A stretch of 64,000 nt of DNA, from contig JAJZAJ010000002.1 in assembly GCA_021799475.1 (NCBI GenBank), positions 251,168-315,167 on the forward strand, read 5' to 3'. This stretch comes from Microcaldota archaeon. Lineage in GTDB: Archaea > Micrarchaeota > Micrarchaeia > Micrarchaeales > Micrarchaeaceae. Position numbers and translations under genes: made by a program. This document shows, one piece after another, positions 10,950 to 30,276 of the stretch. The first letter of the stretch is position 1. Every line of letters begins with the position of its first letter. The notes below the pieces were generated by a model that ran no database searches, was not told the DNA's origin, and worked only from the letters and a program-made list of their open reading frames with translations.

Positions 10950-11843
10950 ATGCAACTCCGGAAGTCCCAATCCGCGATGGAATATCTGATGACGTACGGA
11001 TGGGCCATACTCATCATCGCCGTCGTGTTGGGAGTTCTGTTCCAGCTGGGAGTCTTTTCCGGCAGCGCGCTGACGCCGAAGGCGGCTCCTGGAGCATGTC
11101 AGGTAGTGAGGCTGGGGGGACAGGCGTCCCTTGAAGGAGAATGCCAGGGGCAGCTGCCTCAGTATGTGATGCAGATTTCGGAACCTGTAAGCGGCGGGTC
11201 TATAGCTTTCATGGAGGTTCCGAATTCCAACTATCTGACATTTAATCCACAACACAATTTTACCATATCAGTATGGATAAATGTAGTGACCCAGACGAGC
11301 GGTTTTATCAATGAACTTTACCAGATAGGGTTTGGTAACACTACCTGCAATAATGATTATATGGAAGGCGTGATACGGAACAGCTATTACAGCATACAGA
11401 TGACAAGAGGAACCGCACAGCCTATGTTTTACCAATACAGCCTGAACAAATGGTACAACTTTGTGGGTACTTATAACTCAATATCAGCATCATCGAATAT
11501 GGTAGCCCTGTATGCAGACAGTACATTTGTAGGAGGAGGCGCGGGTGGAACCTCTCAGATGACTACAAACAATTTATTTGCGGGCATCTGCTCCAATCCA
11601 GGAGCGATAAACCTGATGGACGTAGCGAACCTGCAGGTGTACAATGCGTCTCTGTCGTCGAATGAGATTGAGGCGTTATACGCGGAAGGGATAGGGGGCG
11701 CTCCGATAAAGATCCAGGACATAGCGGGATGGTGGCCCCTTAACGGCAATTTGAATGATTACTCGGGAAACAACAACAATGGCCAGGCGCATGGAAGCAT
11801 ATCGTTCAACGGCAGCTGGCAGAGCGGGTATACTCCGCCGTAA
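10950..11843 (+). CDS. Class-III-signal-type prepilin with LamG/ConA-like domain (paralog 1)
   Basis: N-terminal KSQSAMEYLMTYGWAILIIAVVLGVLFQLGVF pilin helix; LamG-like body (TISVWINV, VANLQVYNASLSSNEIEALYAEG); C-terminal GWWPLNGNLNDYSGNNNNG. Confidence 0.82.
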   Translation: MQLRKSQSAMEYLMTYGWAILIIAVVLGVLFQLGVFSGSALTPKAAPGACQVVRLGGQASLEGECQGQLPQYVMQISEPVSGGSIAFMEVPNSNYLTFNPQHNFTISVWINVVTQTSGFINELYQIGFGNTTCNNDYMEGVIRNSYYSIQMTRGTAQPMFYQYSLNKWYNFVGTYNSISASSNMVALYADSTFVGGGAGGTSQMTTNNLFAGICSNPGAINLMDVANLQVYNASLSSNEIEALYAEGIGGAPIKIQDIAGWWPLNGNLNDYSGNNNNGQAHGSISFNGSWQSGYTPP

Positions 11844-11901
11844 AACCAGAGAGACTAAGCGATAATTTTTATTCCTTCTTCTCTATTAACTAGAGGTTGT
11901 A

Positions 11902-12759
11902 ATGTACAAATCCCAGTCCGCAATGGAATACCTCATGACGTACGGATGGGCCATCCTCATCATCGCCGTCGTATTGGGAGTGCTGTTCCAATTGGGTGTC
12001 TTTTCCGGTAGCGCACTGACGCCGAAGGCGGCTCCGGGTGCGTGCCAGGTGGTGCGGCTGGGAGGTCAGGCGTCCCTTGAAGGAGAATGCCAGGGGCAGC
12101 TGCCTCAGTATGTTGCAAACTTTTCTGGTGCGTCCACTGCGCATATAAGCGGCATTTCAGACGCGAATTTCCCATCAGGAACGCAACAGGTAAGCATTTT
12201 TGCATGGATAAGGACGACACAAAGCACTACATTCCCTATGGCTTTTATATATGGTATGTATGGCGTTGCCGGCCAGGCCTGGGCATTGGGCATTTATAAC
12301 GGACGGACGTGCCCAGATGATTGGGTGGGCCATACTTGCGATCCAAACCTATTCGTAAATGATGGAAAGTGGCACTTTATCAGTTTTACTTACAATGGAG
12401 TATCAACAGATATCACCACAGATTATGTTGATGGGAATGCTGGAGTAATAGTTTCCAACTCGACAGCGCCAAACGCCAACGTTGGCAGCGGCAGTGCAGG
12501 ATATATCGGATATGGCACAAATGAATACTTCATAGGCCAGCTCGCCAATATACAACTTTATAACACCTCGCTCTCGGCAAATGAAGTGCACGCTTTGTAC
12601 CTTGAGGGTATCGGTGGAGCACCGGTCAAGATACAGAACCTCGTGGGATGGTGGCCTCTCAACGGAAATGCGCAGGATTACTCGGGAAACAACGATAACG
12701 GGCAAGCCGCAGGAGGGGTTTCCTTCAACAGCAGTTGGACCTCGTCATACACGCCATAG
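11902..12759 (+). CDS. Class-III-signal-type prepilin with LamG/ConA-like domain (paralog 2)
   Basis: N-terminal ~68 aa identical in protein sequence to the 10950 ORF, different LamG body, shared GWWPLNGNAQDYSGNNDNG C-terminus. Confidence 0.82.
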   Translation: MYKSQSAMEYLMTYGWAILIIAVVLGVLFQLGVFSGSALTPKAAPGACQVVRLGGQASLEGECQGQLPQYVANFSGASTAHISGISDANFPSGTQQVSIFAWIRTTQSTTFPMAFIYGMYGVAGQAWALGIYNGRTCPDDWVGHTCDPNLFVNDGKWHFISFTYNGVSTDITTDYVDGNAGVIVSNSTAPNANVGSGSAGYIGYGTNEYFIGQLANIQLYNTSLSANEVHALYLEGIGGAPVKIQNLVGWWPLNGNAQDYSGNNDNGQAAGGVSFNSSWTSSYTP

Positions 12760-12769
12760 CGCATAGCAA

Positions 12770-13543
12770 CTAGCTGGCTGGCAGGGGCTTCAGAAACTGC
12801 GAGTTAGTGCGCAGCCATCTTCTTCTCTCCTTATAGTCAGGGATTACAGATGACACCGTCTGCCAGAATCTTTTTGAATGGTTCCTTATTTTCGTATGTG
12901 CCAGTTCGTGGACTGCCACATATTCCAGTATATGCTGTGGCGCATGGAGAAGCCGGAAATTCAGTATTATATTGTTGTCCCTTGAACACGACCCCCATGT
13001 AGTCAGATTGTCCCGGAGAGTTATAGTCCCGATAGTACTGCAAAAATGCTTTTCGTTGATCGCATGCACCATACGACACAAGTCGGGCAAGTATGTTTTC
13101 TCTATGAATCTGCGTATGCGGAGATTGATGCGGGCGCTGCTCGCAGAAATAGGGGCAGTTACATAAATTGATCCGTTGAATGTACTGATTTTTATCCTTT
13201 CCGCATCAGTCCTCAATATGTTCACGGATAATTTATTATCCAGTATATATAGGGTGTCCTTGTCATTGAAATTTATTTCCGGCATTCCGAGAAATCTGCC
13301 GGGATCTTTCTGCAAAGCGTTCGACATCCTGCGGTATAGCTCCGTTGCTGCCTTTCCGGCGCTCCTGCCGCTCATCCGTTCCGGCACCTTTATTACAAGA
13401 AAGTCTCCGCGTACGCGTGCATAGCAGTTTCTTATCTGAGCTCTAAGCACCTTGACACTTATAGTCCTACCGGCTACCGAGATAGGCGTCAGCCCTTCCG
13501 TAATTTCAGTTATTTCCCCAATCTCAATCACCCGGCTTATCAA
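12770..13543 (-). CDS. YgjP/DUF45-type metal-dependent hydrolase
   Basis: LRDNLTTWGSCSRDNNIILNFRLLHAPQHILEYVAVHELAHTKIRNHSKRFWQTV (HExxH + WGSCS). Confidence 0.85.
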   Translation of the reverse strand: MISRVIEIGEITEITEGLTPISVAGRTISVKVLRAQIRNCYARVRGDFLVIKVPERMSGRSAGKAATELYRRMSNALQKDPGRFLGMPEINFNDKDTLYILDNKLSVNILRTDAERIKISTFNGSIYVTAPISASSARINLRIRRFIEKTYLPDLCRMVHAINEKHFCSTIGTITLRDNLTTWGSCSRDNNIILNFRLLHAPQHILEYVAVHELAHTKIRNHSKRFWQTVSSVIPDYKERRRWLRTNSQFLKPLPAS

Positions 13544-13626
13544 AACAGTTAAATTCCTTTATGCGAAAGCTATTATACACAGCAGATTCTTTTTGTTTAT
13601 TTCACCCTGCTTTGGACCGTGAGCGC

Positions 13627-14671: not shown

Positions 14672-17383
14672 ATGCTGCCGAAGCTTATCGATATGTCTAG
14701 CGCCCAGATTGCTGTAGAGTTCATAGTTGTCTATAGTTTTGTGCTGCTTGTCTTTGTGACATTTTTCTCGCTTGTTGCGAGCCAGAGCGCGACAGGGTTG
14801 AGCCAGCAGCAATATTCTACAGTGCAGCTGGTCGCAGAGGATGTCGCAGCATACATAAACCAGGCGGTCGTATCGGGCAGCGGCTACAATGCATCCGTCC
14901 AGATAGATTCCGGCATAGGCCTCTCACAATACAATATATCGATAAGCACTAGCGGGATAGTCATAGCCTCTTTCAAGACAGGGGGCCAGACGCTTTCAGC
15001 GCAGGCTTCCAGCGATGCAAGGAACCTGCACATAAACGGAACGTTAGTAGCCGGAACAGCAAACGGCACGGCGCTCTACCAGATACCGGCGTATACGGGA
15101 TTGCTCAGGGTAGCTAACAGAGACGGCATAATCTACATAGACCAGACGCCTCCCAACATCAGCGTTGCGAGCTTCGTTTACGCGAAACAGGTGGCAGATC
15201 AGAAGGTAGCAGACTTCAATGGGACCTTAAGCAATATATCAACTACGAAAACGACACTTTCCTCTAATGCCTATACAGTAACAGCATGGATTGACCCAGT
15301 AGGTCCCGAAGTAACTCGGGCCATAATAGGCTCGATGACCGCAGGGGGGCTAGAATTCAGGCTAACTACAAACAATTATCTAGACATCCTGAAGGAAGAT
15401 ATTGCCGATATAGGGTCATCTTCTTCGCCGGTTGCAAATAACGCATGGAGCTTTGTCGCTGCCACATACAACGATGTGTCTGGAAATTATGCTTTCTATA
15501 TAAACGGGGCTGCTGCGGGATCTGGAGCCGGTATCGCTCCTCTTACCCCTTTCAAGCTTGCAATAGGGAAGAATCCGCCGAATGGCGCAGACTATGAATA
15601 TTTCAATGGAATCATGTCCAATGTGCAGATCTACAACATTACACTGTCGTCTCAGCAGATACTCTCGCTGTATAAACAGGGCATTGGGGCAGCCCCTTTA
15701 CTCCCGCAGAACACGATATCATGGTATCCGTTAAATGGAGATGCAAATGATTATTCCGGGAATGGCAACAGCGGCTACCCGGGTTTCGTCTCCTACCAGA
15801 ACGCGGTGCAGATAGCTGCAACTGTTTACAATAATAGAGGGATACCGTCTGCAGGAGATCCTGTAGGAATAGCATCCGCATATCCTGGGTTATTCAATGG
15901 AGGAAATGGTGCGGCTGTTGGCCTTACTAACGCTTATGGCAACACCACTGCGGTATTCAGCTCGAATGCGGGTATAGGAAGATTCAACGTAACAGTAAAT
16001 GCATTCAACGGTAACTCAACACTATACAATGCTGCTTCAGGAAATGGATTGGTTGACTGGTTTCCGCTTGACGAAGGTGGAGGGAGCTATGTATATGACG
16101 AGAGCGGATCGAACGCAATAGGAACTTTCCTATCTCCAAAATGGTCGCCTATGCCGGACAACTCTTCGAATATATTCGGTATGTCTTTCCTCGGTTCCAA
16201 TCAGATATATGTGGGAAAGAAATACTTCCAGGGAAACTCGTTTACCGTATCGGGATGGGTGTTCTGGCCGGCAAACACGAATATGGTGCAGAGTACTACA
16301 CACAACGACCTTTCCTTCCTTGTCAGCGGTGCTTCATATACGGATAACCTGATAGTTATGTCGGATAGGGCAGGATTCTGGAATATGGTAATAAACGCGC
16401 AGCAGCTTGAATGCAGCACAGGCCCATCAGCCGGCAGCTGGTATGATTTCACCGGGACGTGGAACAATGCTACCGGCATACAGGCAATATACATCAACGG
16501 CACAGAAGCGTGTTCCAGAAAGAGCAGCATTGCCGCAGAGACAAACGCTCCGATGCTTATAGGTGGAGGCGGCCCGGTAGGCACTGATGATGACGGAGGC
16601 GCATGGTTCAACGGCACTCTCTCGAACCTGCAGATATACAATACAACTCTCGCGCCGGCACAGATAGGTCAAATATTCAAAAACGGAATATCGGGATTGC
16701 CGCTGCCGAATATAGGATTGGTTGGATGGTTCCCGCTCGCAGGCAACCCTAATGACTACAGCATATATGGAAATAACGGGATTATAGTAGGCAGCAATAC
16801 CGTCCATAACCTGCAGGTCACGTTGCCACACAGCGCGGGTGGAACGCTATACTCGTCATTCAACGGTTCTTCTGGGGTAATAACTTTCACTCCTAAACTG
16901 CCTGGCACGGTCTGCAACATCACGGTTACGGCATGGTCATACGAAAATGGTCCATCTGCGTACAGCGCGACGAATACAAAACAGAAAGGAGGGGTGTTTA
17001 GCCTTACAGGCTCCAGCAACAACGGATGGCTAGAGGATATGTACAACCCGATAAAATTTGAGTTTCTGATAAGGAATGGGACAAATGCAAACTCATGGAA
17101 TATAACCGGAAGCTATTTGGGCCACTGGATATTCTCTTCGGCCATAATAAACGACGGGTTTGCCACAGGATATATAAACGACGTCAACGTGACGGGAAGG
17201 CCGAAATATATCGGGTGCGTATCCTTGCAGAATGGTGCGATAGGAAGGTCGGAAGGGAGAGTGTTCAACGGCAGCATAGCGGATGTGCAGGTGTACAATT
17301 CCGTGCTGACCCAGGCGCAGCTCCAGCAGCTCTATGTTGCCGGGATAAATCCGTCGAGGCAATTCTCGCTCGGTTCGGGTTGA
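14672..17383 (+). CDS. Giant single-pass surface protein with about three LamG modules
   Basis: N-terminal SSAQIAVEFIVVYSFVLLVFVTFFSLV pilin-like helix; repeated LamG signatures (VQIYNITLSSQQILSLYKQG, LQIYNTTLAPAQIGQIFKNG, VQVYNSVLTQAQLQQLYVAG). Confidence 0.8.
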   Translation: MLPKLIDMSSAQIAVEFIVVYSFVLLVFVTFFSLVASQSATGLSQQQYSTVQLVAEDVAAYINQAVVSGSGYNASVQIDSGIGLSQYNISISTSGIVIASFKTGGQTLSAQASSDARNLHINGTLVAGTANGTALYQIPAYTGLLRVANRDGIIYIDQTPPNISVASFVYAKQVADQKVADFNGTLSNISTTKTTLSSNAYTVTAWIDPVGPEVTRAIIGSMTAGGLEFRLTTNNYLDILKEDIADIGSSSSPVANNAWSFVAATYNDVSGNYAFYINGAAAGSGAGIAPLTPFKLAIGKNPPNGADYEYFNGIMSNVQIYNITLSSQQILSLYKQGIGAAPLLPQNTISWYPLNGDANDYSGNGNSGYPGFVSYQNAVQIAATVYNNRGIPSAGDPVGIASAYPGLFNGGNGAAVGLTNAYGNTTAVFSSNAGIGRFNVTVNAFNGNSTLYNAASGNGLVDWFPLDEGGGSYVYDESGSNAIGTFLSPKWSPMPDNSSNIFGMSFLGSNQIYVGKKYFQGNSFTVSGWVFWPANTNMVQSTTHNDLSFLVSGASYTDNLIVMSDRAGFWNMVINAQQLECSTGPSAGSWYDFTGTWNNATGIQAIYINGTEACSRKSSIAAETNAPMLIGGGGPVGTDDDGGAWFNGTLSNLQIYNTTLAPAQIGQIFKNGISGLPLPNIGLVGWFPLAGNPNDYSIYGNNGIIVGSNTVHNLQVTLPHSAGGTLYSSFNGSSGVITFTPKLPGTVCNITVTAWSYENGPSAYSATNTKQKGGVFSLTGSSNNGWLEDMYNPIKFEFLIRNGTNANSWNITGSYLGHWIFSSAIINDGFATGYINDVNVTGRPKYIGCVSLQNGAIGRSEGRVFNGSIADVQVYNSVLTQAQLQQLYVAGINPSRQFSLGSG

Positions 17384-17393
17384 TGGTGGTTAT

Positions 17394-17960
17394 ATGGCTT
17401 TTTGCAGTGTGCATGGGAGGGTTGGAAAAGGCCAGATATGGAGCCTTGATATGATATTCGCCATGGTGATATTCTCTATAGCGATAACAATCCTCGCGTT
17501 CACGTGGACTACGATAAGCGGGCAGGTGGACGCAGCGTATTCCGGCAGCTCTGTAATAATGCCGCTCCAGGCGCAGACTGTTGCAAAAAACCTTCTGTCG
17601 CCAGGGTATCCTGAAGGATGGCCAAGCCAGATAAACCTCTCAAACAAGAATTCATGGCTCAATGTAAGCGTTGGGCTCGGCAGTGCTTCCGGTGGAATAG
17701 GAAACCTGTCTTCATCTAAAATATACGCGCTAATGTCTATGGCTGACAGCAACTATCAGTTTACTAAACAGGAGCTCGGAGTCGCGTATGATTACGACAT
17801 ACTTATACAGAGCGGAGCGATGAACCTGTCCATAGGCGAGCCGCCCGGAGTAAATAAAGCGGTTGCTATATATGTGCAGAGAGAGAATGTCGTGGTTGAC
17901 GGAGTTCCCGGAATGCTTACCGTTCTGATATGGACGAATACCCCTCTCGGAACGACATGA
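17394..17960 (+). CDS. Single-pass pseudopilin-like surface protein
   Basis: KGQIWSLDMIFAMVIFSIAITILAFTW N-terminal helix plus a short extracellular domain; embedded in the LamG operon. Confidence 0.6.
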   Translation: MAFCSVHGRVGKGQIWSLDMIFAMVIFSIAITILAFTWTTISGQVDAAYSGSSVIMPLQAQTVAKNLLSPGYPEGWPSQINLSNKNSWLNVSVGLGSASGGIGNLSSSKIYALMSMADSNYQFTKQELGVAYDYDILIQSGAMNLSIGEPPGVNKAVAIYVQRENVVVDGVPGMLTVLIWTNTPLGTT

Positions 17961-18038: not shown

Positions 18039-20291
18039 GTGATGGTGATGAATGCGGATAATGTGAAAGGTTTTATCTTTACGGTCGACGCGATATTCGC
18101 CATGGTTGTAGCCGCAGCCGCTGTTTCGATACTGCTCTATATACACTTCACTCCGCAGATTTCTTACCAGGAACCGGCGTCTGAAGCATACAGCGTGATG
18201 CAGACGCTGCTCAGCACAACAGTTGCCCAGGCGGCTGCAGGGAGCACATATGCGAATTATTCCTATGTCGCAGGAAACTCATCGCAGTATACATGGCCAA
18301 TGTTCGGACATGATGCAGCTGACTCCGGGGCGACACCGGGTTATGGACCGCAATTTCCGCGGTTGCTATGGGATTTTGGAACGAAAGATGATATAGTGCC
18401 TGGCATATCGGTCGCTGACGGAGTAGTCGCCTTTGTGGAAGTCACTGGCACAGCGGGCTCGAGGCTGTTTATACTGAATGCAACAACAGGGAAAGTTATA
18501 GCAAACACAACAGTAGGCAACAACTTCATAGTAAGTCCAATGATATACAATCATGAGATAGGGACTGCCAATTCCGGGGATTTTTTCAATTTCTATTCTG
18601 AGAACGGAACTAATATAGGGGAAGTGCAGGCACAGGACATATCTCTAAACAGCACTGGGTCAGCTTTTAACAACTATTTCCAGATCTCTAAAGATCTGGT
18701 TAGTTCTTCAAACTTCACGGAGCAGCTGTCAGGCACGATAGGGAGCTATCTTGCATATGGAAACGGAGCATACATTGCCTCAAACCAGCCAACAACTGGA
18801 GGAAGCCCTGGTACGATAAGCTCATTTGGATTATTCTCACAAGGAACGGCAAGAGAATGGATGCAGGGATGGACAAGGAATTTGGGATCTGTGCTGAACA
18901 CCACACCGCCATCGATTTCGGGAAATTACGTGGGCGTAGGATGGGGATCCAATCTTTCAGTGTACAGTCTCAACGGCAGCCGCGTCGTGGCGCTTACTTT
19001 CCCGACAAGGTTATCAGGAGGCCCGGCACTTGCGAACGGGTCCGCCTATGCCATCACAGGAAATGCACTGTATTCAATAAATATAACCAGCAATAGCATT
19101 ACTTATGCATCGAATATTTTGACGCCGACAGCCTCAACAGGCTCCAGTCTTTTTGAGAGGATGCCTGCTATAACACCGAACATCGTTTACGTGCTGGCAA
19201 ATGGCCAGCTTTTCGAGGCATTCAACAGGTGGACCGGCCAGAGGCTATGGGCTGCACCGCTTAATGGCACTCCTTTCAAGCGCATCGGTGACGTTGCGAT
19301 ATCAGGAGGTAATGCCTATATCAGTGATGGAACAACTCTGTTCGCGTTCGGAGGCTGCTCCTCGAGCCCGCAGGAAAGTTTGCTGCAGGCTATAGCAACA
19401 ATGTATGTCAATGGAGAAGGGGGCTGCGCTAACCTGCTGTTAAACTCCACATACGGCACCGGAAATATAGGCATCTTCATAAACGGCACTTACGGTCCGG
19501 CGTACAAGCTTGCAAATTTCAGCTCGCTGCAAGGTTCCCAGTTTATAAGCTTCCAGGCAATAAATCTTCCGACAAGCTCACCTATTTCCGCGGCAGCATG
19601 GGTTTACCCGTATTCCGTGCAGGATGTCGCATCCGATAACGGCAACTTCGTAGGCGTACTCTCATATGGGACGAAGAGTACCGGCTGCACCCCCGGAGGA
19701 AATTCGTTTGTATTTGCAATCACTTCCCTGTTCAGGCCTTCTTTTTCCGATTATTGCAACAACGCGGTAGAAACCAATGGACCTACGCTATCCCCGAATG
19801 CATGGAACTTCATAGGGATAAGCGCCAGCGGATCGAATATTATATTTTATGTGAACAACCAGTCTGAGAGCATGACTGTTAAAAACACGATTACCCCTGT
19901 ATCAAAATTCCTTACAATTGGAGATGTGGATAACGGAGGCCCTGGAGGCAGGGTGTTCAACGGGATAATAGCAGGCGTGCAGCTATACGGCAACGTGCTT
20001 ACTGCAAACCAGATGACGCAGCTGTACAACGAGGGTCTGGGAGGCATGCCGATACAGAATAATAGCCTGGCAGGGTGGTGGCCGCTCGAGGGTGATGGAT
20101 CAGACTACAGCGGCAACGGAAACGGCAACTTCGGTATTGCAAGATATCCCCTAAACTACGTAAGCAGCAATTATATGCCGCCGTCGCTGAAGAGCGCTTT
20201 TGAGGTAAGTGCCGCCTCAGTTCCTATGCTTTTAAATGTAAACGGCACTTATAACACTTATAATGTAAGTGTAGTAGTGTGGAGGAAATGA
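18039..20291 (+). CDS. Single-pass surface protein with PQQ-type beta-propeller-like region and C-terminal LamG module
   Basis: N-terminal KGFIFTVDAIFAMVVAAAAVSILL; WPMFGHDAADSGATPGYGPQFPRLLWDF and LFILNATTGKVIANTTVG are PQQ-repeat-like; C-terminal LamG (GVQLYGNVLTANQMTQLYNEG, GWWPLEGDGSDYSGNGNG). Confidence 0.75.
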   Translation: MMVMNADNVKGFIFTVDAIFAMVVAAAAVSILLYIHFTPQISYQEPASEAYSVMQTLLSTTVAQAAAGSTYANYSYVAGNSSQYTWPMFGHDAADSGATPGYGPQFPRLLWDFGTKDDIVPGISVADGVVAFVEVTGTAGSRLFILNATTGKVIANTTVGNNFIVSPMIYNHEIGTANSGDFFNFYSENGTNIGEVQAQDISLNSTGSAFNNYFQISKDLVSSSNFTEQLSGTIGSYLAYGNGAYIASNQPTTGGSPGTISSFGLFSQGTAREWMQGWTRNLGSVLNTTPPSISGNYVGVGWGSNLSVYSLNGSRVVALTFPTRLSGGPALANGSAYAITGNALYSINITSNSITYASNILTPTASTGSSLFERMPAITPNIVYVLANGQLFEAFNRWTGQRLWAAPLNGTPFKRIGDVAISGGNAYISDGTTLFAFGGCSSSPQESLLQAIATMYVNGEGGCANLLLNSTYGTGNIGIFINGTYGPAYKLANFSSLQGSQFISFQAINLPTSSPISAAAWVYPYSVQDVASDNGNFVGVLSYGTKSTGCTPGGNSFVFAITSLFRPSFSDYCNNAVETNGPTLSPNAWNFIGISASGSNIIFYVNNQSESMTVKNTITPVSKFLTIGDVDNGGPGGRVFNGIIAGVQLYGNVLTANQMTQLYNEGLGGMPIQNNSLAGWWPLEGDGSDYSGNGNGNFGIARYPLNYVSSNYMPPSLKSAFEVSAASVPMLLNVNGTYNTYNVSVVVWRK

Positions 20292-23200
20292 AAAAAAGCA
20301 TTTTTACTACAAATAAAAAGGGCATACTCCTTACGCTGCTGATGGTAGTAATGCTTATATTGATGGTTGGGGAACTTACCTTCTATATAGCGCTGAATAC
20401 GAATTATAATACTCTCGCTGAATCCGGAGCGGAGGCTTCCAGCCAGGGCAGCTTTGCCGGCGCTGTCCCGTCCGAGCTCTCGGGCTTCCTGCATACAGAC
20501 CTCTATGCATCAATACTGGCTCTAAACCGTTATGAGAACACTTCAAGCCTCAGATATGGAAATTTCATAACCAATACGAGCCAGGAGCTATCGTCGCTAG
20601 TAGTCAACGGAACCGTGTTTTCTACAAACATGAGCAAATATATCGGGACAGCGTCGCTCAACGTACATATTGCAAATTTGGAAAAGCAGGCTGCAGCACA
20701 GGGGATAAACCTCACGTTTCAGAATAGCAACGTAATAATTTACCAGACGACTCCGTATGCGATAAACATAACTTATACTGGGATAATGAATGCGACTACC
20801 GCATATGGGAAACTGAGCATACCGTTATTCGTAAACTCAAGCGTTAACCTAAACGGGCTTCCTGACCTCCTTGCTACGCAGGAGGGATATCCATATCAGG
20901 TATATCTGCTGCCTAACGCCCCGCAGGCGAAGCTTATAGGAGGGACTACCGCGGAGATCGGATCGCATTCAGCCTTCATGTCCGTTTACGGAACCGCATT
21001 ATCAATACCTGCAGGCTCTACATGCAGCGCAGTGCCATTGCAGGATCAGAATGCCAATTATATACTTATAGACGGAGATTCTGGAGCGTTGGTAGGCACC
21101 TGCGGCACTGCGGGACTCATAACGTGTAATTCCGACCTGGCCGGGAGCATTAGCGTGCCTTGGCTGGCGTACGCGCCCGGAGTATGCTCGTCTGTTCTTA
21201 ACGGCATATACAACGGCACACAGATTTTGCTTGACGGAGCTGTGCTGGGAGCCTATAATATATCCGCAATACAGGCGGAGCAGGGCAGCGGCTACTTCTT
21301 CCCGTCGCAGTATGCGCCGTCTTATCTCGAAAGGTCGGAAGGAGGCTTGACACAGAGTTCCACAGCAGGGATAACATCGCTTGGGCAGTACTCGAGAGAG
21401 ACAACTGCTTTCAACAAGGGGCTTGCGAACACTCCCGCAGATACGCCTTCTCCGTCGCTCGATGCGCTCGATGTAGGAGATCCAGGTATTACCCTGGCGG
21501 CGTGGATAGAACCAACAAACTTATCTACCTGTGGTTTTTCAGGAGTGGCTTTTTGCGAGATAATAGCCAAAAACGGAGCCTATCTTTTGGGGATAGATGG
21601 AGCAGGAAATTTATACTTTGCAATTAATAACACCGGCTCTAGCTGGAATTGGTACTCCGCTAATGCTGATATCAGAGCAGGGAACTATTATTTTGCAGCT
21701 GCAAGTTATGACGGCAATACTATAAGGCTGTATGTTGACGGAAGTATTGTCAGGAGCATTTCTAGCTATGGCAATATAGACTATACGAAAGCAGGAAACC
21801 AGCAGCCTTTAAGCATTGGAGCGTTAAGCCAATCCGGAGGCCCTGTAGCATATTTCATTGGAAGGATCTCTGATGCCCAGGTGTATAACATAGCTCTCCC
21901 TCCTAATGCCATAATGTCGATGTACCAGCAGGGCTTTGGCAGCCCTCCAGTCTCAGGCCTTGTGGGCTGGTGGCCTCTTTACGGCAACGCAAATGACTAC
22001 AGCGGTAATATGAATAATGCGGTTTTCACTCCTAGCGGCGTTAGCTTCACTCCGTTGGTAGGCTATTCCGGAGACCCGCTCCTGCAGGGACCGCAAACGA
22101 CTTATTCGATTAAAGCGGCACGCATGGTAGCGAGCAGCAGCGACTACATAAATATAACAAGCAGGGGCGTAAACGGATTTTCTTTTGGCGACAACCCAAG
22201 CTCAAGCTTCGCGTGGGTCTATCCTATAAGTTACCCTTCTTCCGGCGCATGGTCGATGGTGGATTTTTACGGGTCGAGCACTTCGACTCCGGCAGTTACA
22301 CGAACCTTGTCAATTAACCCTGCAGGAAATGCGTGTTTCAACAGCGGCGGCAACGATGCGTGCGATGCGCTGCAATTGAAGCTCAATGCATGGAATTTCA
22401 TAGGTTATTCGTATTTAGGCGGTACAGAAAACACAGTAACAATCTTCTTGAACGGCAATTCTGTATCTACAAACCTAGCAAAAGCGCTCTCGACATCGCC
22501 AAGCAACGCATACATAGGCGCTTACGCCGGGCCTGGTTATTTCTTCAACGGCAGCATAGCGGATGTACAGGTGTACAATTCAGCTATCCCGCCGGCGCAG
22601 GAGATGCAGCTCTATTCTAGTGGCATTTCAGGAGGGCCTGTTGCGATGAACTCAATAGTTGGATGGTGGCCTCTCAACGGAAATGCGCAGGACTACTCGA
22701 CATACAATAACAATGGAAATCTGGAGGGCACTACAACGTTTACGCAGGTTATTTCACAGCCTGTGCCTACGCCCATATACGGTGTTCAGGGCTGCAACAA
22801 TCCAACACAGTGCACAAATTCGACGCTACAGCAGATGATGTTAGGCGCACGTCCGCTCACGCAGAGTGCAGCAGGATGGGAGAACGAAAGTACGGCTCTC
22901 GGATTGCCGTTTGATCAGTCACCTGGGGCGATGTCTTTCAATGGTGCAGGATATTTAAATGAATCCAGCGGGATTTTGTGGGTCGGCGAAGGGGCTTCAT
23001 CCTTCTCCTTTTCAATTTGGGTCTATCCTACAAACAGTTATGGTGTTATAGTTGACGAGGTTGCTAGCGGGGGATGGCATGATTCTTTTATAAACATGGT
23101 TGGTGGAACTGGATACGTACGCGTCTGGGACGCCCCTTCATGCACGAGTTTGGGGAGCATACCGCTCAATGCCTGGAGCAACATAGTGCTTAGTTACAAC

Positions 23201-23611
23201 CAGTCCTCGAAAGAGCTGCGCGGCTTTCTGAACGGAATACTGAAGGGGAGTCAGTCCTTATCTAGGACAGCGCCGACAAAGCTCGCTTATTATCCGATAG
23301 GGATTGGAGACGTTACTTCGTGCGGCACCTCTACAGCATACAACTATCAGGGAAGTGCTGCTGATTTCAAGCTGTATAATGTCGGCTTGAGCGCTGCGCA
23401 GGCGTTGCAGCTCTATCAGAATGATAGCGTGATTAACCTGCCGGCCAACATGATATGGGAGTTAAACTCTGGAAATAATGGAGCGATGAACCAGACTCCG
23501 GAGAGCATTACAGGAGATACTGGCGTCTTATATAACTCATCATCCGGATTGGTGCAGTGCAGTTCAGCTAGCGTAGTAAGCGGATTATGTCCCGAAGAAT
23601 ACGTGCCATAG
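20279..23611 (+). CDS. Giant single-pass surface protein with three LamG modules
   Basis: N-terminal TM helix; three repeats of LamG terminators (AQVYNIALPPNAIMSMYQQG, VQVYNSAIPPAQEMQLYSSG, FKLYNVGLSAAQALQLYQN). Overlaps the upstream ORF by 13 nt. Confidence 0.8.
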   Translation: MEEMKKSIFTTNKKGILLTLLMVVMLILMVGELTFYIALNTNYNTLAESGAEASSQGSFAGAVPSELSGFLHTDLYASILALNRYENTSSLRYGNFITNTSQELSSLVVNGTVFSTNMSKYIGTASLNVHIANLEKQAAAQGINLTFQNSNVIIYQTTPYAINITYTGIMNATTAYGKLSIPLFVNSSVNLNGLPDLLATQEGYPYQVYLLPNAPQAKLIGGTTAEIGSHSAFMSVYGTALSIPAGSTCSAVPLQDQNANYILIDGDSGALVGTCGTAGLITCNSDLAGSISVPWLAYAPGVCSSVLNGIYNGTQILLDGAVLGAYNISAIQAEQGSGYFFPSQYAPSYLERSEGGLTQSSTAGITSLGQYSRETTAFNKGLANTPADTPSPSLDALDVGDPGITLAAWIEPTNLSTCGFSGVAFCEIIAKNGAYLLGIDGAGNLYFAINNTGSSWNWYSANADIRAGNYYFAAASYDGNTIRLYVDGSIVRSISSYGNIDYTKAGNQQPLSIGALSQSGGPVAYFIGRISDAQVYNIALPPNAIMSMYQQGFGSPPVSGLVGWWPLYGNANDYSGNMNNAVFTPSGVSFTPLVGYSGDPLLQGPQTTYSIKAARMVASSSDYINITSRGVNGFSFGDNPSSSFAWVYPISYPSSGAWSMVDFYGSSTSTPAVTRTLSINPAGNACFNSGGNDACDALQLKLNAWNFIGYSYLGGTENTVTIFLNGNSVSTNLAKALSTSPSNAYIGAYAGPGYFFNGSIADVQVYNSAIPPAQEMQLYSSGISGGPVAMNSIVGWWPLNGNAQDYSTYNNNGNLEGTTTFTQVISQPVPTPIYGVQGCNNPTQCTNSTLQQMMLGARPLTQSAAGWENESTALGLPFDQSPGAMSFNGAGYLNESSGILWVGEGASSFSFSIWVYPTNSYGVIVDEVASGGWHDSFINMVGGTGYVRVWDAPSCTSLGSIPLNAWSNIVLSYNQSSKELRGFLNGILKGSQSLSRTAPTKLAYYPIGIGDVTSCGTSTAYNYQGSAADFKLYNVGLSAAQALQLYQNDSVINLPANMIWELNSGNNGAMNQTPESITGDTGVLYNSSSGLVQCSSASVVSGLCPEEYVP

Positions 23612-23618
23612 TGATGCA

Positions 23619-24533
23619 ATGGATTTTGATAGATTTACCGGTGATTCACGCAAGTCGCAGTCAGCTCTTGAGCTTCTCACAGTGTATTCATGGGCGCTTC
23701 TTGTGATAGGCGTCCTCCTGGCTATAGCATTCATAGTAGCTCTGTCGAACAACCAGGCAAACTACCTGAGCCCGACCTGCACAATACAGCCGCTCCTTCC
23801 ATGCAGTGATTCGCTCCTGAGCACTACTCCGATAAAATACTATATCACATTTACCAACGATCTGCAGATACCGATGAACTTTACCGCAAACGCGATAAAC
23901 GTAACTACGGAAGGGATAGGCAGCTCAGGGACAGAGCACAGTTTCGGCTACTGCTATCCTGGCTTCGCGTTGCCTGGCACAAGCGTAGTGTGCACGGCAA
24001 ATGTCAGCGGCTCTTACGGCGCCACCTCTGGGCGCCAGGCAGGCGTGTTCTTTACTTTATCGTATTACCTTTGCAACAGCGACAGCCAGTCAAGCTGCAA
24101 CACCGCTTCTAGTTACAAGACATCCGGGCTCTCCCTGCAGACCATTGAGCCAGCAACATTAAGCTACAATACGCTTACTGTTGAAATAGGTTCGATAGGC
24201 AACGGCGCAATCGGCGATAACGGGCTGCTGGTCATCGACGGGGAAAGATATGCTGATGGAGCGAATGTGCTGCTCCCATATGGCAAATATACTGTTTATG
24301 CGCAGCCGCTCGCTGGATTCACTTTCTCGAGTTGGAGTATAAAGCAAGGCAGTTCCACAATATCGCCGGCCCTTCCGGCCAATGCAGTCGGCAGCCTTAC
24401 ATTCAACTCCGCCAGTGAGATAGCAGTAATATTCACCGGTCTTTCGTGTAATGTATGCAGTTTTTTGGTAGCATGTCCAGCAGTATGCCCTACTGAAGTC
24501 AGCTGTGGAGGAGGTTTGAATAAGTGCACCTGA
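23619..24533 (+). CDS. Class-III-signal-type prepilin-like protein with InlB/Flg_new-type repeat and Cys-rich tail
   Basis: SRKSQSALELLTVYSWALLVIGVLLAIAF; ANVLLPYGKYTVYAQPLAGFTFSSWS; C-terminal CNVCSFLVACPAVCPTEVSCGGGLNKC. Confidence 0.7.
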   Translation: MDFDRFTGDSRKSQSALELLTVYSWALLVIGVLLAIAFIVALSNNQANYLSPTCTIQPLLPCSDSLLSTTPIKYYITFTNDLQIPMNFTANAINVTTEGIGSSGTEHSFGYCYPGFALPGTSVVCTANVSGSYGATSGRQAGVFFTLSYYLCNSDSQSSCNTASSYKTSGLSLQTIEPATLSYNTLTVEIGSIGNGAIGDNGLLVIDGERYADGANVLLPYGKYTVYAQPLAGFTFSSWSIKQGSSTISPALPANAVGSLTFNSASEIAVIFTGLSCNVCSFLVACPAVCPTEVSCGGGLNKCT

Positions 24534-24613: not shown

Positions 24614-25624
24614 TTATGCTCCCGCTCCTATGGTAGAGAACAGCCCGCTCACCACATGACCCACTACGAAATAGATCAGCAGGCCGACAATCACAAATAT
24701 AGGGAGGAATCGCAGTCCTCTTACAGGGCTGCCTGTAGATATCGCAGACATTATGAGGCTGGCGAAAGAGGTTATCACTATTATCGCAACGTATGAGAAA
24801 TCAGTATATTCTGCAGGCGTGATTTTAGGCGGCGATGGCTTGAAGAAAGAAAGCCCGGTGGCGGGGAGGCCGCTGGGATTCGACTGGAGTATTCCGGCCC
24901 ATACCGTATCTGTTACTACGATCATCTGGTTCGTAAGACCGTAAAGCGTTGGCGCGGCGAACAGACCTGCAAACGCGACGAATATCGTGTATAACATAAG
25001 CTGACCGGATATCTCCTTCTGGATAAGCTGCTGGTTCCTCATGTCTTTCGCTATCTGGGCCAGCAGGTCGGCCATTGCACCGCCAAACCTGAGCGCCTCG
25101 AGTATCATCCTTACAGCATGCTGCAGCTGGTACGACCTGTACTTCTGAGCGAACTCCTGCATTGCATTCTCCAGAGTCTCTCCGCCGAACACCCTTCTGT
25201 TCATCTCCTTTACGTCCTCGCTGAGAAAACCGAACTCTGGTCTTGCGGCAAGCAGCATCGCCCTCTCAAGAGATATCCCGCTCCTTAGGTTGGCTGAAGC
25301 GATCTGCAGGAAATCCGGCAGCATAGTCTCTAGCGCAGTCTTCCTCTTGTCTATAAGATACTCCATTAGGAGGTATATCGCCGCTATGTAGAGGCCTGAA
25401 ACGAGAAGCGATATAACCCAGCTGAGAAGGAATCCGAAAGAAAGATAATAGAGGAGGAAGGCCATTACGAGGAAAAGTATAAGAGCCGGTACTATTGTAA
25501 GCTCCAGAACCATGTTAACAGATGTTTTAACCCCTGCCAAGTCAAGTTCTTTTGATATCCTGCGTGACAGCCCTCTGGATATAAGCCTGTCGAAATTTAT
25601 TTCCGGTATCGGTATTTTGGGCAT
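24614..25624 (-). CDS. Type II/IV secretion system F family (TadC/FlaJ-like) membrane protein
   Basis: Multi-pass protein with T2SSF pattern: LPDFLQIASANLRSGISLERAMLLAARPEFG...LRFGGAMADLLAQIAKDMR. Confidence 0.82.
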   Translation of the reverse strand: MPKIPIPEINFDRLISRGLSRRISKELDLAGVKTSVNMVLELTIVPALILFLVMAFLLYYLSFGFLLSWVISLLVSGLYIAAIYLLMEYLIDKRKTALETMLPDFLQIASANLRSGISLERAMLLAARPEFGFLSEDVKEMNRRVFGGETLENAMQEFAQKYRSYQLQHAVRMILEALRFGGAMADLLAQIAKDMRNQQLIQKEISGQLMLYTIFVAFAGLFAAPTLYGLTNQMIVVTDTVWAGILQSNPSGLPATGLSFFKPSPPKITPAEYTDFSYVAIIVITSFASLIMSAISTGSPVRGLRFLPIFVIVGLLIYFVVGHVVSGLFSTIGAGA

Positions 25625-25628
25625 ATCG

Positions 25629-26714
25629 TCACATTGAGAAGACAGGTCTTGATGACCTTATCAGCTGGAGGAAAACAATCTGCAGGAATACTATCCCGAC
25701 GAGCACAAATCCCAGCACTGTGACATCTACAGTGAAGAAGGATATGAAAGTCGTTAGTATAGTGATTACAGCTATACCCATACTGGGTAAAATTACACCG
25801 AAGAGCATGTAGAACATGGCGAGGGCATTGAGCTTCTGGCCGTAGCTCCTTAGTTCTATTATCCTTTCCTGCGAGACTTGGTCGATTACGCTCTGCAGCG
25901 CTGTCACCACATCGGCACCGGCCTTTATGCTGACTGATGCCTGTAGCATGATGCGTCTGAATGTCCGGCTTTGCGTCTGCGCTACAGTCTGGTCTATAGC
26001 ATCTTCGAGCGGCATCCCTAGCTGTACCCTTTTTACTATCTTTGCGAACTCCTTGCTCGCTTCGCCATATCCGGTGCTTATCGAAGTTATTGCGTTGAAC
26101 AGGGGCATTCCAGACCTAAGGGATATTATCATGTCTCGCGCTGCAAAGAGGAGGTCGCGCTCGACCTGTTTCGCGTTGCTCTTTCTTTTCTGCATCGGGA
26201 AGTTCAGGAACGTGCGGAACCCGAACTGGAATACTGCCACGCCGAGAGCCAAGGATATCACAATATCTATCGCGAATGAGAACCCTATATGCAGGAATAG
26301 GATGAACATCGAAACTGCAACGGCTACTGCCACCATAAGAGAAGCAATAAGCATTTTCTGCACGAATTCGAACACTGTAGATTTTATCCCTTGTTCGCTA
26401 AGCGCCTCTTCAAGGCTGGTATGTTTTGAAGCTATGCCTTGGACATAATTCTTCCATTTGCTCGGTTTGCTTATCTTTCCGGCTTGCCTGCTCTTTGGTT
26501 GCGCGCTTTCTTCGGCAGCTACGGCAGTGGTCTTTTGCGCCGCGCTTTCGGCAAACGGCTGTGATGCGGCAGCGGGCTGCATACTCTGCTTCTGCGCTTT
26601 CGGCTTGATATTTATCTTTGGGAACCTGAATGTTATTTTACCGGGCTTTGGCTGCAGCTCTATCCTTTCGTTTCCGACTCGTATCACCTTCGGTTCCCTT
26701 TTGAATATAGCCAT
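25629..26714 (-). CDS. Type II/IV secretion system F family (TadC/FlaJ-like) membrane protein, second copy
   Basis: LLFAARDMIISLRSGMPLFNAITSISTGYG...IKAGADVVTALQSVIDQVSQERIIELRSYGQKL, C-terminal TM helices. Confidence 0.82.
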   Translation of the reverse strand: MAIFKREPKVIRVGNERIELQPKPGKITFRFPKINIKPKAQKQSMQPAAASQPFAESAAQKTTAVAAEESAQPKSRQAGKISKPSKWKNYVQGIASKHTSLEEALSEQGIKSTVFEFVQKMLIASLMVAVAVAVSMFILFLHIGFSFAIDIVISLALGVAVFQFGFRTFLNFPMQKRKSNAKQVERDLLFAARDMIISLRSGMPLFNAITSISTGYGEASKEFAKIVKRVQLGMPLEDAIDQTVAQTQSRTFRRIMLQASVSIKAGADVVTALQSVIDQVSQERIIELRSYGQKLNALAMFYMLFGVILPSMGIAVITILTTFISFFTVDVTVLGFVLVGIVFLQIVFLQLIRSSRPVFSM

Positions 26715-27457
26715 TAGGCAGCACCACCTTGTTGCATTAACCTTATTGCTTCGGAAAGCCGTTGATCCCTGAGATTCCTCAAAGACTGCTCGAGAGAGCC
26801 CTGCTCAGCCTGCTCATTGATTGACGCCTTTTCCTCTTTGACGATATCCTGCAGACCATAGATTTCCTGCGACACTATGTCCATGTGTTCCTTGTCAAAC
26901 ACGTTTTCCCTTATGCCCTCTATAATTCTCTCGACTTCGGATATCTGATCCGCAAGCGAGAGGCTTGGCAGGACAAGATCGCTCCTCCTGATATTGCGTT
27001 TCTTGAGCTCAAGCTTTAATTTTGGTTTTAAGGAGGAGAGCCTGTTTGTTATGGCAACCATCTCTTTTTTTATCCGCTCCTTATGCTGTTTCATCCTTTC
27101 TCCTGATGGAACTTGCATACCGGTTCGGGCTTCTGCAGGAGAGCCGGAAGGCGGTTGCGGTCTCGGGATTCCGTAAGTATAGCTTGCCTGCGCAACGCCC
27201 GATGTCACAAGATGCAATGATGGCTGTTCTATGCGCTTTTCCTGTGGCTCTTTCATCATACGCCTGCCTCCTGATTCGATGCCGTTTATTATATCAACGA
27301 GTTCTGCATAACTCTTTGGCTGCTCCGGCAGCGGCGCTCCGGTGGCAGACCAGACGTCTAGCGCCACCTCATCCGGCTTCGATGATGATGCCTCGACGCT
27401 TTCTATCTGCGCAACCAGTTCCTGATATCTCTTGCCATCCTCGTCTTCCATGGGCAT
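26714..27457 (-). CDS. Hypothetical cytoplasmic coiled-coil protein in the filament assembly operon
   Basis: Helical/charged sequence; adjacent to the F-type and ATPase genes on the same strand with 1-nt overlaps. Confidence 0.6.
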   Translation of the reverse strand: MPMEDEDGKRYQELVAQIESVEASSSKPDEVALDVWSATGAPLPEQPKSYAELVDIINGIESGGRRMMKEPQEKRIEQPSLHLVTSGVAQASYTYGIPRPQPPSGSPAEARTGMQVPSGERMKQHKERIKKEMVAITNRLSSLKPKLKLELKKRNIRRSDLVLPSLSLADQISEVERIIEGIRENVFDKEHMDIVSQEIYGLQDIVKEEKASINEQAEQGSLEQSLRNLRDQRLSEAIRLMQQGGAA

Positions 27458-29001
27458 TACCTGAACAGATCCTGGGAATACGGCACGTCATTTGCCACCG
27501 CATCGAGCACTTTTGCCCTATCCCTATAATATTTAGCTACAACGAATCCCGCATCGTCTACATTTATGACTTTGTGCTTTACCATCCATGTGAGTATTTT
27601 TGCCTTCTCTGCCACATCATCCACTATCTCCTTCCTTGTAAGCCCGGCATACAGATTTATTACTTCTGCCAGCCTGGTCATCTCGCTGATCTGCGAGAAT
27701 GTATCGTTTCTCATGTTCCACTTATACACGATATTCGCATCTCCTGTTCTGAGCACCTCCCCGAACTCCAGTATGCGCCTTATCCCGCGCGTCCTGTGCC
27801 GGAAAGCTACGACTATGCCGCCTATGGCATTTATCATTATCTTTGGTGTATTTATCGGAGGATTCGTCATCCTTAGTATGGTGTCCTGCGCATTGTCCGC
27901 GTGGACTGTTCCATACACCGCATGTCCTGTATGTATGGCCTCGAACAGGGTTTCCGCATCCTTTGCGGTCCTTACTTCGCCGACTAGCATTATATCTGGA
28001 CGCTGCCTGAGTGCATTGACCATCAGGTCATATAGCGTTATCTCTCCTTTGCCTTCTGGATTCGGCTGCCTTGTGAGCATAGACACCCATTGGAAGATGT
28101 TCGGCAACGTAAGCTCCCTTGTTTCCTCCACAGATATTATCCTCCTTGAAGGAGGGAAAAATATGCTTGACGCATTAAGAAAAGAGGTCTTTCCGGAAGC
28201 AGTCCCTCCCGATATCAGCAAGGAGATTTCGTTTTGTATGCAGACCCATATTAGGCCTGCCATCTCCGGGCTTATCGTCCCGTTTGCAACTAAGGCAGGC
28301 ATAGTCCACGGATTCCTTTCGAATTTTCTTATTGTTATCGTATTGCCTATCTGTGAGATAGGGAAAAGGGTTGCATTTACCCTGCTTCCGTCAGTAAGCT
28401 CAGCGTCCATGAGCGGCGCAAGGTTGTTTATCTCTCTTCCAACCCGTCTGCCTATAGTCTCTGCATGATCGTATATCAGTTCTTCGCTGCCGATTGTGAT
28501 ATCCGTCTTGCACCAGCCTATCTGTTTGTGAAATACCCATATTGGCCCACGCGATCCATTGACAGCAACTTCTTCGAGATGCTCATCAGAAAGCGGGGCT
28601 TCGAGTTCTCCGAGCCCCAGCATCATGTTGATTATGTATGCAATGAGCAGCTGCTTTGTCGCCTCCTTTGTTCCTGGCAGATACTTGTCTATCAATATGC
28701 TGCTTGCCGTCGTCACCTTCTGCCTTATCTCGTTCATGTATACCTGGGATTGTATTTTTGAAGGATCTATCGGCACCATAGTGAGTATCTCGTTCCTGAG
28801 CGAAAGGACAAGAAGTTTGGTGGCCGCGCCAAGCCCGGGGAAAGTCACTTCATATACTGGTACAAAGTCCTCTGTCTGTATTATCTTGACTGATACAGGT
28901 AAGCCGTTTGCACTGAGCTGGTACTGATCCAGTATCCTGTTCTCGCCTACCTTGGCTGCGCTAGGATTCTGTTCTGGGTCCGTATTTTGGGCAGCGGCCA
29001 T
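27457..29001 (-). CDS. Type II/IV secretion system ATPase (FlaI/TadA/VirB11 family)
   Basis: Walker A GGTASGKTSFLNA; RIISVEETRELTLP; QRPDIMLVGEVRTAKDAETLFEAIHTGHAVYGTVHADNAQDTILRM. Confidence 0.95.
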   Translation of the reverse strand: MAAAQNTDPEQNPSAAKVGENRILDQYQLSANGLPVSVKIIQTEDFVPVYEVTFPGLGAATKLLVLSLRNEILTMVPIDPSKIQSQVYMNEIRQKVTTASSILIDKYLPGTKEATKQLLIAYIINMMLGLGELEAPLSDEHLEEVAVNGSRGPIWVFHKQIGWCKTDITIGSEELIYDHAETIGRRVGREINNLAPLMDAELTDGSRVNATLFPISQIGNTITIRKFERNPWTMPALVANGTISPEMAGLIWVCIQNEISLLISGGTASGKTSFLNASSIFFPPSRRIISVEETRELTLPNIFQWVSMLTRQPNPEGKGEITLYDLMVNALRQRPDIMLVGEVRTAKDAETLFEAIHTGHAVYGTVHADNAQDTILRMTNPPINTPKIMINAIGGIVVAFRHRTRGIRRILEFGEVLRTGDANIVYKWNMRNDTFSQISEMTRLAEVINLYAGLTRKEIVDDVAEKAKILTWMVKHKVINVDDAGFVVAKYYRDRAKVLDAVANDVPYSQDLFR

Positions 29002-29010
29002 CAGGCATCA

Positions 29011-30276
29011 TCATTTCACAATATCGTCAAATTTCTGCGACGCATTCTCGGTTTTCTTCTTCATATTGGAGACGTTGTCTTTTATCTCTTTTGAGCGCAG
29101 TTTCAGCCTCTGTAGAGTTATGTATTTGCTTTCTATCGAGCCTTTCGTTGCTGCGTCCAGCGCCCTTATCTCTTCGAGCAGCCTTGATACTTCCGTCTTG
29201 TGCGCGTTTATCTGTGAATTCAGAGTTTGAACATCGCTCTTGACGCTTTGTATCGTATCGAATATTTTGGATGCATCGCCGAAGTTGTCTTTCAGTTCAT
29301 CGAGCTCGGTTTTCATCGCGTCTATGCCTGTCTTCAGTGCGCTGTCGCTCTGGTTCATCTTTGAATATGTCTTTGTGAACTGGTCATTAAACTGCATCTT
29401 TATGTCATCTATCGCCTTTCGAGCCCTGTCACGCTCTTTTAAGAATCCGGATAGGTTGCTTTTCACTTCGTTGAGCTGCTTTGCCTCCTCGTTTATCTCT
29501 TTTATATTCTTGGCGACCTGTTCGCCGTATATCTTGAACTGTACCTCTATGTCGTGCTCGAGCTTGTCGACTTCGTACCTTACGGACTTAAGCTGTTCTT
29601 CGACTGACCTCCTTACCCCATCAAGCGCCTCTTTCTTTGTCCTTGCAGCCTGCTGCATCGCCAACTGTATCTCGTTTGATTTCTTGAGTGCCGCTTCCGT
29701 TGCTTCTATGTTCTGACCCATCTTTCTCGGAATCTCTCCAGTGTTTATCGCATCTATCTTGGAATACAACTCAGCTATCCTCTTGTTGAATGCCGATGAC
29801 GATTCTTCGGCTTGCTTCTTAAGCTTTTCCACCCTTTCAGCGTCATCTTCCAACGCCCGGTATACCTTGTTTATGACGTTTAATTTCTGCTCTATGTCAG
29901 GCATTTTCTGCTGAAACATCTTCTCTGCGCTCTTGACCGATGTATCCAGCGCCTGCAACGTTTCAGAGAGCTTGTCGAGGCTAAGCCTCTGCGACACGAT
30001 TTCCTGCTCTACTATAGATCCCTCTACCCCTACCTGCGCCTTGACTATTTGCTCTTGCTCCTTGCTTATGGTGATAGGCTCTACATACATCTTGCCCAGC
30101 TCATAGCTTATCCTTAAGATGTTGCCTCCTTCGCATATCTTGGCCCAGTTCTCCACGATAGAGGGATCGACACCGAGAGTGGACGCTATCTTTCCCAGTT
30201 CCATCTTTCCCTTGCTCTTGATCAGCTCGACTAGAGAGTCTATGCTGGTGGTAGCATCGCCAAAATCTGCCGCCAT
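29011..30276 (-). CDS. Winged-helix-like N-terminus plus long coiled-coil protein
   Basis: IDSLVELIKSKGKMELGKIASTLGVDPSIVENWAKICEGGNILRI (HTH-like) followed by ~300 aa of heptad-rich sequence. Confidence 0.65.
   Translation of the reverse strand: MAADFGDATTSIDSLVELIKSKGKMELGKIASTLGVDPSIVENWAKICEGGNILRISYELGKMYVEPITISKEQEQIVKAQVGVEGSIVEQEIVSQRLSLDKLSETLQALDTSVKSAEKMFQQKMPDIEQKLNVINKVYRALEDDAERVEKLKKQAEESSSAFNKRIAELYSKIDAINTGEIPRKMGQNIEATEAALKKSNEIQLAMQQAARTKKEALDGVRRSVEEQLKSVRYEVDKLEHDIEVQFKIYGEQVAKNIKEINEEAKQLNEVKSNLSGFLKERDRARKAIDDIKMQFNDQFTKTYSKMNQSDSALKTGIDAMKTELDELKDNFGDASKIFDTIQSVKSDVQTLNSQINAHKTEVSRLLEEIRALDAATKGSIESKYITLQRLKLRSKEIKDNVSNMKKKTENASQKFDDIVK

Follow-up and report, generated by a model that had tools for sequence, protein, structure and literature searches.

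How DPANN archaea recognise their partners, and how they hold on to them, is a question that a 64,000-nucleotide stretch of the Microcaldota archaeon contig JAJZAJ010000002.1 (assembly GCA_021799475.1, positions 251,168 to 315,167; hereafter the window) raises in concrete form. A sequence-only reading had described positions 10950-30276 as an undescribed surface-filament system, in which two prepilins with laminin G-like (LamG) domains and five consecutive large secreted proteins face a dedicated ATPase/TadC pair. Does this locus build a pilus, and do the LamG-headed prepilins belong to it? The source genome (G000; Micrarchaeota, DPANN, 814 kb, 95% complete) is that of a tiny, probably host-dependent archaeon. 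On balance, and with modest confidence, the system is read here as a two-TadC, "clade 1"-like archaeal type IV pilus that gained lectin-like heads in one Micrarchaeota order; its assembly, the motor that drives the LamG prepilins, its ligand and its adhesion to partner cells we infer. The co-occurrence of the two blocks and the pilin-like N-termini proposed earlier have stood, while the word "undescribed" has not, and the genome-wide family to which the two prepilins belong had been missed. That family offers a concrete, genome-encoded candidate recognition repertoire.

The pilus locus and its conservation

The locus is made of two convergent blocks (Table 1). The plus-strand block at 14672-24533 encodes five pilin-like proteins of 188-1110 residues, which together carry seven LamG domains and one propeller, and it faces the minus-strand block at 24614-30276 with the ATPase, both TadC proteins, a coiled-coil protein and a winged helix-turn-helix (wHTH)-coiled-coil protein. 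The earlier F-type and FlaI/TadA-type ATPase calls were borne out, with T2SSF over cut-off in both membrane proteins and T2SSE in 27457-29001. ATPase 1 matched the PDB entries 2oap (GspE2-type, E 3e-77) and FlaI (E 2e-67), as well as CpaF, and is found in 36 of 41 order-level genomes; the nearest named relatives of the genome, traced through this ATPase, belong to Candidatus Micrarchaeota/Micrarchaeaceae, including Micrarchaeum sp. A_DKE and ARM-1. An archaellum was ruled out, as no FlaH or minor archaellin match was found among the locus proteins (Pfam), and ATPase 1 reached 253 bits with the archaellum FlaI model, whose cut-off is 550 bits.

Synteny was surveyed in 80 ATPase loci from named relatives, each count covering the loci long enough to show the feature. 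The wHTH-coil gene lies upstream of the ATPase in every informative locus and the coiled-coil gene Coil247 is present in most (counts in Table 1), with both TadC genes downstream of the ATPase in 63/69. In 46 loci both TadC genes are followed by 4 kb or more of sequence; 40 of them have pilin-like homologues in convergent orientation, and 36 of the 40 contain a LamG open reading frame (ORF) of more than 300 residues, which bears out the proposed co-occurrence of the pilin-like block with the ATPase/TadC block. P304 was seen convergent in just three of the 46. Given this convergent layout in 40/46 relatives, the 27 LamG matches in the source genome (PF13385, Laminin_G_3, exceeds its cut-off in 26 places) and the 22 genes described in the next section, the pairing of LamG domains and prepilins is not a product of chance.

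N-terminal motifs, judged by eye across orthologues, are canonical class III in P903 (QIAxEF or a close variant) and P304 (QSAxE). P188 and P750 show K[AG]xxx[ST]xD, whose acid stands at +6 rather than, like the usual glutamate, at +5, and P1110 has a KG[IVL]LxTLL helix without an acid, giving a count of two canonical signals, two +6-acid variants and one acid-free helix. No AxA-type signal peptide pattern was seen by eye in these orthologues, and the conservation of prepilin-type or pilin-like N-termini agrees with the earlier view of them as pilin-like rather than ordinarily cleaved; on this ground a reading as ordinary LamG proteins, secreted by way of a cleaved signal peptide, was rejected. 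As a separate observation, the K[AG]xxx[ST]xD N-terminus (17394-17960, 18039-20291 and their orthologues) is possibly a distinct prepilin signal class.

P188 is essentially single-copy and occurs in 34/41 order-level genomes, with weaker-scoring matches in other families of the class; its AlphaFold2 (AF2) model (predicted local distance difference test score, pLDDT, 87) has the shape of a pilin. Elsewhere in the genome there are no T2SSF (TadC) genes over cut-off, and a single A24 prepilin peptidase is encoded (Peptidase_A24, G000:C3:23878). Three secretion-type ATPases are present, the second T2SSE member of which, ATPase 2 (L210:11100-12422; G000:C3:54285), is conserved in the order and stands mostly alone in relatives, with no TadC gene nearby.

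A genome-wide family of LamG-headed prepilins

A search of the genome with the 71-residue stem as query found 30 places, 22 of them prepilin-LamG genes of ~300 residues; in 17 of these genes the stem is 83-100% identical to the query. The two LamG prepilins formerly taken as a pair belonging to the locus are in fact members of this family of 22. Each member has a class III stem of 68 residues that hardly varies, a head that diverges widely (~29% identical) and a conserved tail with the consensus YNTSLSxxExxALYxEGIGGAPIxPQNIVGWWPLNGNxxDYSGNN; two stem cysteines are invariant across 75 aligned members. Class III prepilins with the QxxxE motif are present in the genome.

The AF2 model of the 11902 protein (pLDDT 86; predicted template modelling score, pTM, 0.82) combines a short N-helix with a beta sandwich. 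Its head matched pentraxin PTX3 best in the PDB, followed by neurexin LNS domains (E about 1e-9 to 1e-7), and the head profile by sequence also matched an S-layer domain protein, sialidase lectin domains and pentraxins. On these matches, the heads are predicted to have a LamG/pentraxin-like fold. Identity with the NCBIfam "TafC fimbrial protein" was rejected, since its matches lie far below cut-off and are due to the common LamG domain; a literature search on that name found no paper.

In the phylum sample (E 1e-20) the family is confined to two families of one order, being present in 62/63 such genomes and in 0/53 others. Micrarchaeum A_DKE has the pilus locus with LamG giants, yet no LamG match in any of its ~300-residue prepilins. 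Within the system, the LamG giants appear to be older and fixed, and the prepilin-LamG family an addition.

Outside this family lies another pair of giant prepilin-like proteins of ~940 residues (L025 and L026, G000:C3:386365 and C3:365946), whose nearly identical class III stems differ from the LamG stems.

Separate evolution of stem and head

For comparison, 78 prepilin-LamG genes were collected from five congeneric genomes by similarity to the stem of the source genome. Median stem identity was 81% within genomes versus 69% between them, and median head identity was 29% in both cases. Genome-label changes were counted on maximum-likelihood trees: the stem tree, which rests on few columns, needed 6 changes (minimum 4, shuffled mean 43.5), so that stems cluster by genome, the head tree needed 43 (shuffled 44.1), without such clustering, and the tail tree needed 11. 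The proportion of nonsynonymous differences (pN) was 0.04 for the stem versus 0.60 for the head, indicating strong purifying selection on the stem. Across genomes, 30 reciprocal-best head pairs were found, in which heads are up to 82% identical and their stems only ~69%; to the stems of their own genomes, the members of these pairs are mostly 73-96% alike.

Synonymous-codon identity of stems within genomes (0.42-0.57) exceeded expectation (0.34-0.39) in all five genomes and was overall lower between genomes (0.37-0.45), with heads at expectation. Homology starts at the stem start, the upstream flanks being mostly unrelated. From these three observations, stem DNA, on top of strong purifying selection, appears to be homogenised by gene conversion within genomes. 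Selection dominates stem likeness in G003 and G013, where the excess is small and synonymous sites are near saturation (0.78 and 0.75 within these genomes). Recent whole-gene duplication as the source of the near-identical stems was ruled out by the mostly unrelated flanks and the saturated heads. With ends kept constant and a middle free to vary, the family clearly exemplifies concerted evolution at the level of domains, here in a very small genome.

Apparent movement of heads between genes and slots

Two adjacent genes, L020 and L021, are nearly identical over ~600 bases of head and tail, and their stems differ at 70% of synonymous sites. One chromosomal slot, recognised by the same neighbouring genes, is occupied by G000_L015 and by G012_L105, whose heads are 31% identical; the head of G012_L105 is 82% identical to that of G003_L113, with which it has no common neighbours. 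After shadow ORFs of LamG genes that mimicked common neighbours had been discarded, a common flanking gene was found for 0/11 head-orthologue pairs versus 9/20 ordinary genes (Fisher p 0.012, small sample).

In the co-cultured Micrarchaeota member Mia14 (G021), a prepilin-LamG gene and a nucleotidyltransferase/HepT-like pair form a unit of 1974 bases that is repeated in an array (L291:5632-13464, G021:C1), identical over most of its length, near a TnpB-like transposon gene and an AAA_14/DUF4143 ATPase. The pair is of the MNT/HEPN type. The Mia14 array, the slot with different heads and the L020/L021 pair thus exemplify tandem amplification, dispersal and exchange of heads. As an observation apart, the window also encodes an AAA_14/DUF4143 ATPase (50417-51694, minus strand), and a protein of the same architecture lies among the Mia14 LamG prepilins (L291:4309-5568).

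Proposed working and its alternatives

In the working proposed here, prepilins would be inserted in the membrane and then trimmed by the genome's single prepilin peptidase, after which ATPase 1 would power TadC1 and TadC2 in joining the prepilins' N-terminal helices into a polymer, a step in which Coil247 and the wHTH-coiled-coil protein, both conserved, would assist. The pilin-like proteins of the locus, five in all, may serve as a base or tip complex and as fixed adhesins. As the stem is common and tightly constrained, any prepilin-LamG protein could enter the same filament, and the 22 proteins would do so each displaying a different pentraxin/neurexin-like head. If all members pack in the same helical filament, one would expect just such a stem, almost constant inside each genome, different from species to species and topped by freely varying heads. 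Purifying selection plus gene conversion would keep stem and C-tail alike within a genome, and the heads would be old lineages, duplicated, exchanged and replaced until each species has its own set, most likely for attachment to partner cells or their glycans. Because stems and heads evolved separately, this adhesive head set appears interchangeable. That the conversion-homogenised stem and C-tail act as recombination handles, with heads swapped between slots and species and presumably matching or switching partners, is plausible rather than probable; if true, each lineage would present on a single filament a set of adhesive heads that is its own and keeps changing.

Several points weigh against this working. 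The prepilin-LamG genes are scattered over the genome, rarely lie beside ATPase 1 and have no regular linkage to it; the sequence-only reading had made the two LamG prepilins part of the locus, of which they are no fixed partner, and the family is not essential to the locus, as A_DKE has the locus and its LamG giants without it. The predicted N-helix of the 11902 protein is short (24 residues), LamG domains need not bind sugars, and Foldseek gave P188 no convincing match in the PDB (the top ones being ribosomal proteins at low template modelling scores), so that its label as a putative minor pilin rests on anatomy and context. Dispersal and the short helix would also suit single membrane-anchored surface lectins, a bindosome-like array or sugar-capture layer beside a pilus built by the locus proteins alone, all the more as large heads might crowd a filament and archaeal bindosomes, described as type IV pilus-like (PMC4858521), put class III signals on sugar-binding proteins. 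An anchor, however, would need neither a stem invariant within the genome over all 68 residues, including the part outside the membrane helix, nor genome-specific clustering, and we consider this alternative unlikely. Slightly better placed, though still improbable, is the proposal that the LamG prepilins decorate another pilus, unrelated to the window locus and driven by ATPase 2 together with a short pilin: in the source genome, ATPase 2 has beside it three of these prepilins and a pilin of 184 residues whose N-helix is nearly the same as theirs (78% over 40 residues), and the adjacency recurs in G012 and G006. A conserved partnership is unsupported, as ATPase 2 is mostly alone in relatives, and TadC genes over cut-off are confined to the ATPase 1 locus; the proposal is nevertheless kept as a rival.

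The uncoupling of stem and head could also have arisen without head exchange or conversion, by old whole-gene duplication followed by selection that matches stems per species and leaves heads to diverge freely. The strong purifying selection on stems and the near-saturated synonymous sites of G003 and G013 agree with such a history, but the synonymous excess of stems in five of five genomes, on the whole higher within than between genomes and with heads at expectation, does not, nor do the shared head and tail bases of L020/L021 on diverged stems or the slot with different heads in two species. The L020/L021 likeness may itself be an assembly artefact at this repeat; metagenome-assembled genomes may mis-resolve repeats in general. 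Overall, the old-duplication account is the least probable of the three alternatives. Under the reading of a pilus with lectin-like heads, a comparison of stems shows which heads might share a filament, and heads become traceable across species and chromosomal slots. As Mia14 has both the pilus locus and the tandem array of prepilin-LamG genes, filament isolation and imaging are possible there in principle.

Gene inventory of the window

The ORFs named in the sequence-only reading were all found where it had placed them, and its description was partly confirmed, with contiguity, sizes and the count of prepilin-LamG genes in need of correction. The two prepilins do not adjoin the five-gene block, being separated from it by two unrelated genes, at 12770-13543 and 13561-14265. 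The "five consecutive large proteins" do have five pilin-like N-helices, though two of them are of only 188 (17394-17960) and 304 residues (23619-24533). A LamG domain in both prepilins was supported by PF13385 for 11902-12759, as it was for 14672-17383, 18039-20291 and 20279-23611; 10950-11843 has no Pfam LamG match of its own and is placed by family alignment. Both prepilin-LamG genes exist, and a third in the window (47621-48826, minus strand) had been overlooked.

Table 1. Features of the pilus locus and prepilin-LamG members in the window
Feature	Position	Strand	Evidence or remark
Prepilin-LamG member, 297 residues: class III stem, divergent head, conserved C-tail	10950..11843	+	head 47% identical to sister-species member
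Prepilin-LamG member, 285 residues	11902..12759	+	PF13385 E 2e-10; AF2 model, pentraxin/neurexin-like head
YgjP-like metallopeptidase	12770-13543	-	between prepilins and five-gene block
Exosome Csl4-like gene	13561-14265	+	between prepilins and five-gene block
P903: class III (QIAxEF) pilin-like, 3 LamG domains	14672..17383	+	PF13385; N-terminus across orthologues
P188: minor-pilin-like, single-copy, 55-residue N-helix and 4-stranded sheet	17394..17960	+	predicted model, context
P750: pilin-like N-helix (KGxxFTxD), PQQ-type propeller (PQQ_2), 1 LamG domain	18039..20291	+	PF13385
P1110: N-terminal anchor helix (KGxLxTLL), 3 LamG domains	20279..23611	+	PF13385
P304: class III (QSALEL) prepilin-like	23619..24533	+	N-terminus across orthologues
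TadC2, T2SSF platform protein	24614..25624	-	PF00482 E 3e-15
TadC1, T2SSF platform protein	25629..26714	-	PF00482 E 1e-16
Coil247, cytoplasmic coiled-coil partner	26714..27457	-	conserved, 61/69 loci
ATPase 1, FlaI/GspE2/TadA type	27457..29001	-	PF00437 E 7e-33
wHTH-coiled-coil protein, directly upstream of ATPase 1	29011..30276	-	73/73 informative loci
Third prepilin-LamG member in window, divergent; true start probably internal, near KAQSAMEYIMTY	47621..48826	-	stem search

Two further genes of the window are recorded on their own account. An A/V-type ATPase A subunit (39931-43140, plus strand) is read as 1069 residues, with an apparent intein, seen by eye, after GPFGSGK (beginning CVSGDT and ending HN), and a short prepilin-like protein (GAQAAVDFITSYGLVLLVLI; 60752-61315, plus strand) directly follows a response-regulator-like gene.

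Comparison with known systems

In the pilE/pilS antigenic variation of Neisseria, a constant pilin N-terminus is joined to a variable remainder by conversion between paralogues. The present family resembles it in the constant N-terminus, the variable remainder and apparent gene conversion between paralogues, and differs in that conversion here mainly preserves the constant parts; Neisseria-like silent cassettes were ruled out, all 22 copies being full-length ORFs with their own stem rather than 5'-truncated. The Sulfolobus bindosome consists of class III sugar-binding proteins. It likewise fuses a prepilin-type signal to a domain of carbohydrate-binding type, but has other binding domains and no known repertoire on a common stem.

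Clade 1 pili, known from Methanococci, Methanobacteria and Thermococci, have two TadC proteins besides the ATPase, five or more class III proteins, large DUF2341 adhesins and stand-alone pilins (Makarova et al., PMC4858521). Judged by gene content, the locus is alike in its ATPase with two TadC genes beside it, its five pilin-like proteins, two of them with canonical class III signals, its large adhesins and the stand-alone pilins elsewhere. It differs in that LamG giants replace the DUF2341 adhesins (Pfam gave no DUF2341 match in the locus proteins), in the arrangement of two convergent blocks that include a wHTH-coil protein and a coiled-coil protein, in a locus without EppA and in a large stand-alone family of LamG-headed prepilins in place of ~70-residue major pilins.

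The window cluster also occurs in the same gene order in the genome of Mia14 (Candidatus Mancarchaeum acidiphilum), within C1:144000-162000. For this archaeon Golyshina et al. (PMC5498576) report a clade 1 group locus and an expanded set of LamG-like proteins, some of whose genes are linked to type IV pili loci and to a genomic island, and they propose a role in host interaction, an account that a 2018 review repeats (PMC6336744). The likeness is close, comprising the same cluster, a clade 1 group locus and a LamG expansion partly near pilus loci. Given clade 1 pili and the reports on Mia14, the system as such cannot be called undescribed, and LamG proteins and pili in Micrarchaeota are not new. 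The fused stem-head-tail prepilin, genome-specific stems and head exchange are not described in the accessible parts of the two Mia14 papers; nor did the literature searched yield the fused family, its size or the evolution of its domains, which, with partial coverage, argues weakly for novelty. As far as that literature goes, the new part would be the prepilin-LamG family itself, its size and the separate evolution of its domains.

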